Origin: Pseudomonadota bacterium
Lineage (GTDB): Bacteria > Pseudomonadota > Gammaproteobacteria > Burkholderiales > Gallionellaceae
Direction: 5' to 3'
Assembly: GCA_021848465.1 (NCBI GenBank)
Contig: JAJZUP010000003.1
Location: forward strand, 62,001-126,000
Length of the DNA stretch: 64,000 bases
Under the pieces are notes generated by a model. It did no database searches, was not told the DNA's origin, and worked only from the letters and a program-made list of their open reading frames with translations. Position 1 is the stretch's first letter. Each line of letters begins with the position of its first letter. Positions 44,027-61,062 of the stretch are shown piece after piece. The position numbers and the translations under genes were made by a program.

Positions 44027-45295
44027 TCAACGATCAGCAGCAACGTAGAGGTTATAAATCATCAACTGGACAGTAATTACGCGGCCTTCGTCCCCCGGCA
44101 CACTAAATGTCATCCGCCATTCACCAGGCTCCGCTTGGGCAACCTCTCCCTTAAAAAGATCATTGCACTCTCGCAGGGCAGCGGGGCCTTTCTCCAGAAT
44201 TTCGCTAAACCTGCTGCGCTCTTTATTAAAAACAACTAAAGCAGCTTTGCAGTCACGCCACGTCAAGTACCCGAGCAACTGCCGCAATCCATCAGCCAGT
44301 TCCTTAGGTCCTCGCCAAATCTTGCACTCGCCGACAAATGCAGCACGGTTGTCTTGCTCAATGCATATATCTGTTTTACCTTTTGCGCGGAACGTCTCTC
44401 CCGTGGCTTGCCCTTGAAAATGTGTATTCAGGTTACCAAGGATGACGTCACGAAGTTCTTCCTCGTGAAACTTGGAGAAAGTTGCAGGTGCCTTCTCAAA
44501 AGTTCGCCCTTGAGCACGAATAGCTGAGAGAATATTCTCGTAAGCTTGATCAGTAATTGAGAAGCCACTCAACTGCTTAGCATCCGCCACAGGTGGCAAT
44601 TCACGTATCACTTTCTTCGCAACAGGAATGGGGATTAGTGAAGGCATCCCTGGTTTAGCAGAAACTGGAATATCGAGTGCCTTAGCTAGATCACGAATAC
44701 CACCCAATCTCGAACGACGATTTGCCACAGCGGACTGGAGTACGTGCTGGAGCTCACGCTCATACTGGTTGAGCTGGTTAAGCTGATTCCTGACGGTATC
44801 TACAGTGAAGTTGATTGCTGAATCTATTTCACGCTGAATACTCTCAGCAGTCGCATTGTGCTGATTGAATTTGAATTTGTATGTAAGCCAACCAATCCCG
44901 TCAGTGTTTGGTTTGGTAATATCGGCGTATACAGAGCTGAGAATCATAGTACTAGGCGTGAAGTGCAGAAGTTCTGATTCACCGGTAAATGGCATGCGCA
45001 CGGCAACGGAAATTCCGGGCACTTGAATGCTTCCGCCATGCCGAATATCGTACGTAAAGCTATCACGAGTTTCGAATTGGCATTCGCTCATGGACTTCTC
45101 TGCACGCTCCGGATATAGCGTCAAAGGTGCAATGGAGAACTTATCCTGAAAATGCGCAATTAGCTGCTCATCGGTACTCGAATGGATCTGTCCCGATGGA
45201 ACCTCTGCTACCGCCTTTACTGCTTCCCTTTTTTGATGATCTAGAACACTGTAAAGATCACCCTTCGCAAACAACCGATTTTCTCTATCTCGCAT
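44027..45295 (-). CDS. Putative PD-(D/E)XK nuclease-fold protein, possible defence gene
   Basis: 422 residues. The N-terminal 300 residues are not recognised (a helical segment about 150-190, QLNQLNQYERELQHVLQSAV). The C-terminal 130 residues show a PD-(D/E)XK core: E278-E280 in the first helix (KFHEEELRDVI), D309 (GKTDICIE), E323-C-K325 (FVGECKIW) and Q339 (RQLLGYLTW) on the following helix. That arrangement fits an active DNA nuclease. GC and codon use look lower than in neighbours, suggesting transfer. AGGGA lies about 9 bases before the ATG. The adjacent toxin-antitoxin pair supports an accessory or defence setting, but this is inference. Confidence 0.7.
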   Translation of the reverse strand: MRDRENRLFAKGDLYSVLDHQKREAVKAVAEVPSGQIHSSTDEQLIAHFQDKFSIAPLTLYPERAEKSMSECQFETRDSFTYDIRHGGSIQVPGISVAVRMPFTGESELLHFTPSTMILSSVYADITKPNTDGIGWLTYKFKFNQHNATAESIQREIDSAINFTVDTVRNQLNQLNQYERELQHVLQSAVANRRSRLGGIRDLAKALDIPVSAKPGMPSLIPIPVAKKVIRELPPVADAKQLSGFSITDQAYENILSAIRAQGRTFEKAPATFSKFHEEELRDVILGNLNTHFQGQATGETFRAKGKTDICIEQDNRAAFVGECKIWRGPKELADGLRQLLGYLTWRDCKAALVVFNKERSRFSEILEKGPAALRECNDLFKGEVAQAEPGEWRMTFSVPGDEGRVITVQLMIYNLYVAADR

Positions 45296-57405: not shown

Positions 57406-58686
57406 ATGAGCAACAGCACACCTGCAAACTATCAAAACAAGCCTTTCACATCCCCTCGCGATCCGGAATTTCTATCCCGCAGGATAAACCGCTATTACCG
57501 CGACAGAGTCATGAGCACTTGGAGTGGCGGACACATCATGCGCGGACTAACCCCGAGCAGCGACGCCATTCATTTAAGCAGCAACGACTACCTGTCCATC
57601 GCCCAACACCCGCGGATTCTCCAAGCTGCGGCAAACAGTCTGCTGAGCGAAGGAAACGGCCTGCTTATGTCCGGAATCTTTTTACATGGTGCAAACCCCC
57701 AATTGGAATTGGAACAGAGAATCGCCCACTTCATGCAGGCTGAAGCCGGAATCCTCTGCCAATCCGGATGGTGTGCCAATACCGGGCTGATCCAGTCTAT
57801 CGCGGATGAGCAAACTCCAGTCTATATCGACATGCTTGCGCACATGTCCTTGTGGGAGGGTATCCGCAGTGCCGGCGCGAGACCCATTTCTTTTTACCAC
57901 AATGCCCCAGAACACCTTGAGAGACAGATACTCAAACAAGGACCTGGCGTCATCATTGTGGATTCGGTCTACAGCACAAACGGAAGCATCTGCCCCCTTC
58001 AGGAAGTTGTTGAAATTGGGACAAAGCATGGTTGTGTAATTGTGGTTGATGAATCCCACTCGTTAGGGACGCACGGTGCTCAAGGTGAGGGTATGGTTGC
58101 CATGCTAGGCCTATCCAACAAAGTACATTTTCGCACCGCAAGTTTGGCCAAGGCATTTGCTGGGCGGGCAGGATTTATTACCTGCTCCCGGCACTTTTCC
58201 GACTATTTCAAATTTGAATCCAATCCAGCGATATTTAGTTCGACCCTGCTACCTCACGAGGTCGCCAGCCTCAATGCGACACTATCAGTCATTCAGGAAG
58301 AGGGCTGGCGTCGCACCAAACTGCACAGCAATGCGGCCCAACTTCGGCGACACCTATCGGATTTGGGTTACAACCTGAACGACAGCCAGTCCCAGATCAT
58401 TGCCCTGGAGTCCGGCACCGAGCAACAAACCATCGTGCTCAGGGATGCACTGGAAAAACGGGGAATTTTCGGTTCAGTATTTTGCGCCCCCGCTACGCCC
58501 AAAAACCGAGCCATGGTCAGGCTGTCGATCAATGCATCACTAGACTCGGGTGAGTTGGAGCGAATCGCCGCTGTTTGCGCAGAAATTCGCGATGAAGCTG
58601 ATATGTGGAGTTGGTCCTCCACTCAGCGCAGCCTGGCAAATAAAATGCTTCGAGTATCGAGCCTGCCTGAAACTGCGCCGATTTGA
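57406..58686 (+). CDS. lqsA: Alpha-hydroxyketone autoinducer synthase (CqsA/LqsA/JqsA-like)
   Basis: A 426-residue class II PLP aminotransferase-fold enzyme. CqsA/LqsA-specific features are HLSSNDYLSIAQHP, the GNGLLMSGIFLHGANPQLE block, VDESHSLGTHG and the PLP lysine K249 in RTASLAKAFAGRAGF. The family joins acyl-CoA with aminobutyrate or SAM-derived substrates to give CAI-1- or LAI-1-like signals. The ATG at 57406 follows AAGGGAG by 7 bases; an earlier start would add 42 residues. It converges on the lqsR-like gene with a 43-base gap, next to a matching sensor kinase. GC appears lower than in neighbouring genes. Confidence 0.88.
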   Translation: MSNSTPANYQNKPFTSPRDPEFLSRRINRYYRDRVMSTWSGGHIMRGLTPSSDAIHLSSNDYLSIAQHPRILQAAANSLLSEGNGLLMSGIFLHGANPQLELEQRIAHFMQAEAGILCQSGWCANTGLIQSIADEQTPVYIDMLAHMSLWEGIRSAGARPISFYHNAPEHLERQILKQGPGVIIVDSVYSTNGSICPLQEVVEIGTKHGCVIVVDESHSLGTHGAQGEGMVAMLGLSNKVHFRTASLAKAFAGRAGFITCSRHFSDYFKFESNPAIFSSTLLPHEVASLNATLSVIQEEGWRRTKLHSNAAQLRRHLSDLGYNLNDSQSQIIALESGTEQQTIVLRDALEKRGIFGSVFCAPATPKNRAMVRLSINASLDSGELERIAAVCAEIRDEADMWSWSSTQRSLANKMLRVSSLPETAPI

Positions 58687-58729
58687 AATCCAGCCCCCCC
58701 TTGGCGTTGTGCAAGGGGAAAACAAAAAA

Positions 58730-59752
58730 CTAGACCCCGCCCCATTTCACCTGATCCAGTTCGTTGAGGAAGCTGCGATATGGCAATGCCTTACCCAGTC
58801 TGTGCAAGGGCGGACTCGGTATTATCGTATAGGCATACCAGCGACTCTCCCCCTTAAATTCAGTCGCCGGATATAGAAATTTCCGCCAGTCCGTACAATC
58901 AGGAGCCCAATGCCCCCCCGTTTGCCAGAAGTACGGAATCACGCGACCACTTTTCAGCACATCCAGCAACTCGTCCGGCGCCCCTTGCTCAAATGCAATC
59001 TCATATTCGCCTTGTAGCTCATCATCGTTTGGGATAAGTAGCAGAAAGCTTCCCCCTCTCTCATCAACCATCAACATCCCTTCCGGGTCGCAGCATAAAT
59101 AAAACTCAACGATTTTCTGCTCGGCACAGATTTCCCTGAATTTTTCGACAAATGCAGAGTCGCGCAAGAATGCGTGCTTTCCGATAGACAAGGCATCAGC
59201 CAATACTCTCTCGACCTGGCGAAAATAAAGATGTTGAAGCTCAACAATGCTCTGATTCAGGATGGTACTGACATTGCTTTCCTGTTTCAGGATAAAGCGA
59301 TCTATCAACCCCTGGTTAAATGCTTGCACCGCAATTTTTTCATCTGCTTTTCCCGTAAGCAGGATTTTCTTGATCGCGGGATTTTTAATGCGACGGCAAA
59401 ACTCCAGCCCGTTAATGCTCGGCATGTCATAGTCTACAACCACAACGGAGACCTGCTCAAAACGTGCGTCGTTGTATACCTCGCGATGCACCTTATCCAG
59501 GTTGATGTCAATCACATGATGTGACTGTGTCAAATAATCCGCATGCATGTAACGCGAAAAAAAACTTTCAACCGGCGACGATGAGTTGCTTTCCCCATTC
59601 AAAATTTGCAATGCGGTTTCTGGCAAATCGTATAACTGGAATGCCAGATTGGAATCCAGCCTCAAACTGAGATTGGCAAGGAAATCTATACTGTCATCGA
59701 CAAAAAATACTGTAGTAGGAAAGTAGAATGGAGGAATCGTGCCATTATTCAT
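58730..59752 (-). CDS. lqsR: LqsR-like response regulator
   Basis: 340 residues from MNNGTIPPFYFPTTVFF. The receiver has the acidic pair D19-D20 (FFVDDSIDF), phospho-acceptor D107 (VVVVDYDMPSINGLEF) and K135 (LLTGKAD), but about 60 residues are inserted between the first and third strands (NGESNSSS to VYNDARF). The C-terminal half has no DNA-binding motif, as known for LqsR, so output may be by protein contact. Its ATG overlaps the kinase stop by ATGA, so the two are coupled. Confidence 0.85.
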   Translation of the reverse strand: MNNGTIPPFYFPTTVFFVDDSIDFLANLSLRLDSNLAFQLYDLPETALQILNGESNSSSPVESFFSRYMHADYLTQSHHVIDINLDKVHREVYNDARFEQVSVVVVDYDMPSINGLEFCRRIKNPAIKKILLTGKADEKIAVQAFNQGLIDRFILKQESNVSTILNQSIVELQHLYFRQVERVLADALSIGKHAFLRDSAFVEKFREICAEQKIVEFYLCCDPEGMLMVDERGGSFLLLIPNDDELQGEYEIAFEQGAPDELLDVLKSGRVIPYFWQTGGHWAPDCTDWRKFLYPATEFKGESRWYAYTIIPSPPLHRLGKALPYRSFLNELDQVKWGGV

Positions 59753-61062
59753 GGTGTCAGTTCTTTCAGCTCCGGAAAAGTTAAAACAAACTCGGTGTAT
59801 TCGCCATAAACTGATCTGCAACTGATGCTCCCGCCCAAAGAGCTCATCACACTGCGGCAGAAAGCCAGCCCGACACCTGTCCCCACCTTACTTTCCCGCT
59901 CTGGAACCCATGTATAGAAACGGGTAAAAATATGTGGCAGAACATCCTGGGGTATTCCGGTCCCAGTATCCCTGAATATCAACACACTTCCTTTTTCTGA
60001 GCCTGTAAGCCGGATAGTAATTTCGCCCTTACCTGCTTTAGCGATGTAGTAAAGCGCATTCTTCAGCAAGTTAAATAGAACATGTACCATCAGGATCTCT
60101 GCCCCATGAAAATTAAAATCGGCACCCTCCACCTTTATCTGCTGACGCTCCCGCTCCGAAGCGAATGGATAGCGGAGAATGGCTGTTTCAATACATTTCT
60201 TCATGGAGCACAACGCAGGCTCTTCGACTTCGGTGCGATCCATGCGTGCATTCATCAGCAACATGTCAATAATCGTATTAGAGTGATCCGCCTCACTTTT
60301 TATACGCTCAAGCACCCCGTCCATAAGATTTAAATGTGCTTTCCGGATTTGCTCAATAGGCAATCCATGTTCCTTTGCCAGCTTGTACGCCTCCAGAAGA
60401 GCTGGCAAATATTGCTGCAAACCCGCCGCCCCACTGCGAATGCCTAACAAAGGAGTGCGCAGTTCATGAGCGATATTTCCCGCTGTCTCAAACATTGCAC
60501 GCAATCTGGCTTTTTGCAGGCTCTCAGCGCTGTAATTGGCAATGCTCCCCAAAAGTACTGCAAACAGGAAAATTGGGATGGCCTCCAACGTAATGCCATG
60601 GACACTGGTTACATCTGTTGTCATTGTAAAAGCCAGCCAAGCTAAGCTAATCCCTATGGTGAACTGAGCCAAAAGGCTGATCCAGTCCAGCAATAAGATC
60701 ATCAGGAATATCGCAACAAGCGTAGAAAGCAGCCATACAGTATTAGTGCCGTTTTTCAACAACATGAAGGTAAAGAAAAATGGCAATCCAAAAAGCATTG
60801 CGCCAAACAAATAGGACTTTCTAAAACGCTTCAGCCCTTCCGGCCATCTTGCATAAAACACAAGCGGAAAGAATATTGCACTGCCCGCAAACCTGAGCCT
60901 GATATTTTCATACGGCTGAGGAAAAAGGTCATGCCAGATAAAATAATAAAGCGGGAAGGCAACAACTGCGACAGCGCTGAAAATAACAATGCGCTGCTCG
61001 GATAAACCGAATCTTTTTTCAGCGCCAACAATCAACGCTTTGATATAAGCCAATGCTTTCAT
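59749..61062 (-). CDS. lqsS: LqsS/CqsS-like membrane sensor histidine kinase
   Basis: 437 residues. About six membrane helices (residues 25-175) form the sensor, with almost no periplasmic loop, as in CqsS. The dimerisation domain has H199 in NIAHELRTPLLGIRSGAAGL, followed by a helical QQYLPALLEAYKLAK stretch typical of the family. The ATPase part has NLLKNALYY, DTGTGIP and GTGVGLAFC. There is no receiver at the C-terminus, unlike Vibrio CqsS but like LqsS. GGGAGGGGGG precedes the ATG. It presumably senses the ketone made by the convergent synthase and signals to the overlapping regulator. Confidence 0.88.
   Translation of the reverse strand: MKALAYIKALIVGAEKRFGLSEQRIVIFSAVAVVAFPLYYFIWHDLFPQPYENIRLRFAGSAIFFPLVFYARWPEGLKRFRKSYLFGAMLFGLPFFFTFMLLKNGTNTVWLLSTLVAIFLMILLLDWISLLAQFTIGISLAWLAFTMTTDVTSVHGITLEAIPIFLFAVLLGSIANYSAESLQKARLRAMFETAGNIAHELRTPLLGIRSGAAGLQQYLPALLEAYKLAKEHGLPIEQIRKAHLNLMDGVLERIKSEADHSNTIIDMLLMNARMDRTEVEEPALCSMKKCIETAILRYPFASERERQQIKVEGADFNFHGAEILMVHVLFNLLKNALYYIAKAGKGEITIRLTGSEKGSVLIFRDTGTGIPQDVLPHIFTRFYTWVPERESKVGTGVGLAFCRSVMSSLGGSISCRSVYGEYTEFVLTFPELKELTP

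Follow-up and report, generated by a model that had tools for sequence, protein, structure and literature searches.

Enzymes of the CqsA type couple acyl-CoA to SAM or 2-aminobutyrate, and kinases of the CqsS/LqsS type sense the ketone and control the phosphorylation of a regulator. The Gallionellaceae are known for iron and nitrite oxidizers, and we found no report of alpha-hydroxyketone (AHK) signaling in this family in the literature searched. A survey reported lqs clusters across the Alpha-, Beta- and Gammaproteobacteria (PMC10653808); Burkholderia, Ralstonia, Polaromonas and Nitrococcus had already been named in a 2012 review, which reported hdeD only in L. pneumophila (PMC3376566).

Here, we analyzed a locus at positions 57406-61062 of the window, the whole 64,000-nucleotide stretch of DNA under study, which belongs to a Gallionellaceae draft genome of 2.43 Mb (85.8% complete). 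We are highly confident that it is an intact Lqs-type cassette for AHK quorum sensing that a member of this family gained by horizontal transfer; what the analysis shows directly is the identity and order of the genes, the intactness of the catalytic residues, the conservation of the ligand-binding residues and a foreign composition. The original prediction had described a complete three-gene Lqs/Jqs-type locus. Its coordinates turned out to be exact, all three open reading frames (ORFs) are intact, and the identity held for each of the three proteins, with matches well outside what chance would give. It had also assigned such loci to Legionella, Vibrio and Janthinobacterium; the kind is indeed a known one, but it is not limited to these genera and is common in the Betaproteobacteria (PMC10653808).

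Identity and layout of the three genes

The gene at 57406-58686 on the plus strand encodes an AHK synthase of the LqsA/CqsA/JqsA type (426 amino acids). Its product scored 609.5 bits on NF005526, the profile for AHK-type autoinducer synthases, against a curated cut-off of 428, and matched the curated family profile with an E value of 2e-183. The closest solved structures are those of Vibrio cholerae CqsA (3HQT, E value of 1.7e-107), with which the PLP lysine K249, within a TASLAK motif, is aligned. We considered whether the protein might instead be a housekeeping or secondary-metabolism enzyme of the BioF/KBL/ALAS type, lying next to an unrelated two-component pair. These enzymes share its PLP fold family, bioF is its second-best profile (258.6 bits), and the same genome encodes a separate BioF-like protein (C7:719360-720388) that is 27% identical to it. 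However, the protein passed only the AHK synthase cut-off, remaining below those of the BioF, KBL, ALAS and serine palmitoyltransferase profiles, and in most relatives the synthase gene adjoins genes for a CqsS-like kinase and an LqsR. The separate BioF-like gene also counts against this reading, as the genome already holds one. As the original prediction had anticipated, the protein fell within the AHK synthase clade, away from the BioF rows, in trees that represent Legionella by LqsR (6SY9) alone, with no L. pneumophila LqsA in the synthase tree and no Legionella LqsS. Profile score and tree together led us to reject a BioF, KBL or ALAS identity, and we regard the reading as a whole as extremely improbable. 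In another genome, a PLP synthase (L007, G074:C1:1908030-1909070) reached 302 bits on the AHK model, below the cut-off and above the BioF-like genes, and sits on a very long tree branch.

Facing the AHK synthase gene, an LqsR-family response regulator of 340 amino acids is encoded at 58730-59752 on the minus strand. Residues 3-334 of this protein matched PDB entry 6SY9, which is titled Legionella pneumophila LqsR (E value of 2.9e-77). The AlphaFold2 model of the regulator (pLDDT of 81.8) retrieved the same entry in Foldseek, far ahead of any other fold (E value of 4.3e-29; TM scores of 0.77/0.84). In both sequence and fold, the protein thus resembles LqsR over its full length, including the unusual output domain, which in LqsR has a diguanylate cyclase-like fold and no demonstrated cyclase activity (PMC10653808).

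The third gene (59749-61062, minus strand) encodes an LqsS/CqsS-type sensor histidine kinase of 437 amino acids with HisKA and HATPase_c domains. It is 31% identical to Vibrio campbellii CqsS over 433 alignment columns (E value of 5e-62), starting at the first helix and running through the whole ATPase domain, so that the match covers both sensor and kinase domains, as the predicted relationship to CqsS called for. The sensor part alone scored 245, compared with a mean of 38 (standard deviation of 6.6) for shuffled sequences. Six N-terminal membrane helices are present in the AlphaFold2 model, at residues 22-46, 54-68, 78-103, 108-124 and 127-148 and from residue 161. The three residues that had been singled out as functional, K249 of the synthase, D107 in the receiver of the regulator and H199 of the kinase, are each invariant in a 14-member alignment.

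The kinase stop codon and the regulator start codon share the sequence ATGA, an overlap of 4 bp, and the two genes form one apparent operon facing the synthase gene, with 43 bp between the stop codons of synthase and regulator. An AAGGGAG sequence precedes the synthase ORF; scans for promoters and terminators gave signals that did not exceed those of shuffled sequences or stayed within the shuffled spread. The lqsA-, lqsR- and lqsS-type genes are mutually adjacent, the arrangement by which an Lqs cluster is defined. The L. pneumophila-type lqs arrangement is not present, since regulator and kinase genes overlap and no hdeD separates them. The convergent layout and the missing hdeD are thus as first described, but the suggestion that this order is particular did not hold. 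Among 94 loci, picked mostly for a synthase like that of the window so that the frequencies are not unbiased, 79 have synthase, regulator and kinase together, and 75 show the order A> <R <S; contig ends break five more after A> <R, and three have the divergent order <R <S A>. We therefore rejected the idea of a novel gene order: no order is commoner than A> <R <S, hdeD has been reported only in Legionella, and both features are ordinary. Hosts of Lqs-type loci include Paraburkholderia, Trinickia, Paludibacterium, Chitiniphilus, Uliginosibacterium, Sulfurimicrobium, Sulfuritalea, Propionivibrio, Nitrococcus and Mariprofundus. Gene sets of this kind are known from many related bacteria, and the locus shows their usual arrangement. 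A diverged subgroup (L091 and L092, from genomes G205 and G471) has the same convergent order; its synthase is clear (about 50%), but its kinase and regulator have diverged strongly (27-29%).

Ligand-binding residues and proposed working

Ligand determinants of V. cholerae CqsS include W104, S107 and F162 (PMC3376566). When this numbering was carried over via V. campbellii CqsS, the three positions corresponded to W110, S113 and F167 of the window kinase; W110 and F167 are conserved in all 84 kinases compared and S113 in 83. The length of the ligand tail is set by C170 in V. cholerae and F175 in V. harveyi, bulky residues allowing eight-carbon tails only (PMC3285556). At this site the window kinase has Ala175, and alanine is found in 56 of the 84 kinases. 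With this residue, a signal whose tail has at least ten carbons is plausible, as far as can be read from sequence.

By analogy with described systems, we infer the signal chemistry, phosphotransfer and outputs as follows. The synthase, with PLP bound at K249, would condense an acyl-CoA with SAM or 2-aminobutyrate to give a ketone similar to CAI-1 or LAI-1, which would then exit the cell. Binding of the ketone to the six-helix sensor would switch the balance between autokinase and phosphatase activities at H199, and phosphate would pass between the kinase and D107 of the LqsR-like regulator, whose gene lies with that of the kinase in one apparent operon. The C-terminal output domain of the regulator would, in turn, control the targets.

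LuxS was not found in the host genome in a search whose controls worked, and a LuxI search returned nothing in the host genome and nothing in the control genomes either. At the completeness of this draft, other signaling genes may have escaped notice. The same genome encodes a second LqsR-family regulator, unlinked to the locus (G000, C5:27824-28825; L094:7825-8829) and 33-34% identical to the window regulator, and no synthase or CqsS-like kinase was found near it in the 17 kb read. Its relatives, at 53-55% identity, occur in five other Gallionellaceae, among which only G116 has a synthase. The lack of a synthase or CqsS-like kinase near this gene raises the idea that one ketone kinase might serve two LqsR outputs.

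LqsR-like regulators, often adjoining a CqsS-like kinase, also occur in genomes that have no AHK synthase, in the same GTDB class and outside the order (L052, L060, L062, L063, L064, L065, L067, L068, L069 and L077). The synthase is absent from 19 of the 24 such LqsR genomes, 12 of those being at least 90% complete, and it is possible that these bacteria are listeners without a voice.

It is conceivable that the window locus does not serve quorum sensing in its host, and that it is a recent arrival which is silent or is used for listening to, or interfering with, neighbors. The many gammaproteobacterial relatives that hold an LqsR, often with a kinase, and no synthase would fit such a role, as would the foreign composition of the locus and its very patchy occurrence within the Gallionellaceae, and few phenotypes have been reported for the Lqs system of Cupriavidus taiwanensis (PMC10653808). 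On the other hand, the three intact frames and the conserved active-site and ligand residues argue for selection since arrival, and we consider this explanation somewhat unlikely.

Distribution and history of the cassette

A quorum-sensing cassette gained from outside remains our preferred reading, and composition bears on its origin. The third-position GC contents (GC3) of the synthase, regulator and kinase genes are 0.57, 0.53 and 0.50, respectively, compared with 0.74-0.83 in seven flanking genes, and the GC dip is limited to about 57.0-61.1 kb of the window. With GC3 values this far below those of its neighbors, the three-gene block was probably acquired horizontally from another lineage, judging from sequence composition. 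Most Gallionellaceae have a relative of the neighboring PCMT gene; with the flanks compared to this extent, we saw neither an empty site between the flanking genes in close relatives, paired with donor-like copies elsewhere, nor orthologous loci at one chromosomal position across several genera. A search for flanking repeats as marks of insertion gave only chance-like pairs. Elsewhere in the window, a 422-amino-acid open frame on the minus strand (44027-45295; GC of 0.48 and GC3 of 0.45) had no Pfam match and is possibly another acquired gene.

Among 158 Gallionellaceae species, an AHK synthase was detected in three, of which at least one lies in a different subclade; in an order-wide sample, at a stricter threshold, the count was 19 of 399. 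On the tree, the window synthase lies near those of the Sulfuricellaceae, Paludibacterium and relatives (no starred branch), while the G116 copy falls in another, well-supported clade and has a different gene order. We also compared window positions 57406-59752 with the locus of Gallionella sp. Simpson3, a member of the same family (L025:873-2144 and L025:3-761). The window regulator is sister to the Simpson3 regulator with a support of 99, whereas a grouping of the two synthases is disfavored (AU test, P = 0.038).

The regulator grouping is what would be expected if the cassette had been inherited vertically within the Gallionellaceae and lost in most members. We find this scenario improbable in view of the low GC3, the rarity of the synthase in the family, its failure to group with that of Simpson3, and the separate subclade and gene order of the G116 copy. 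Instead, the tree positions of the window, Simpson3 and G116 copies suggest that the Gallionellaceae gained such genes horizontally on two or more occasions, perhaps with exchange of parts. Since the synthase and regulator trees disagree on the Simpson3 grouping, the cassette may not have moved as one unit, a hint of recombination within it. An extended scenario would have one ketone kinase feeding two LqsR-type outputs and, in addition, a synthase swapped by recombination beside a Gallionella-type regulator. We rate this combination as unlikely; if the synthase exchange were true, signal and receiver would have been re-matched in this lineage.

The locus probably adds a case of AHK signaling to the Gallionellaceae, as predicted from its genes, and the cassette is best seen as a sporadic, horizontally moving trait. 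Existing knowledge of the Lqs-type system itself is unchanged.

Comparison with named systems

With the L. pneumophila lqsA-lqsR-hdeD-lqsS cluster, the window locus shares the synthase, the LqsR fold (6SY9) with its receiver aspartate, and a separate six-helix kinase. It differs in lacking hdeD and in the overlap of regulator and kinase genes, which form an apparent operon converging on the synthase gene. Vibrio cqsA-cqsS has a homologous synthase and a homologous sensor, with W104, S107 and F162 in common; however, Vibrio CqsS, a hybrid kinase, carries a receiver itself, no adjoining LqsR was found (L175), and the C170/F175 site does not hold the alanine of the window kinase. The jqsA-jqsS-jqsR genes of Janthinobacterium sp. 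HH01 are likewise a betaproteobacterial three-gene AHK cluster, in a different host family; this likeness is one of description, the jqs order being taken from the wording of the report (PMC3566124). The lqs-type clusters of Paraburkholderia, Paludibacterium, Sulfurimicrobium, Sulfuritalea, Chitiniphilus and others match the window locus in all three genes and in their convergent order, with synthases about 59-75% identical to that of the window; sequence divergence and host lineage are the only differences.
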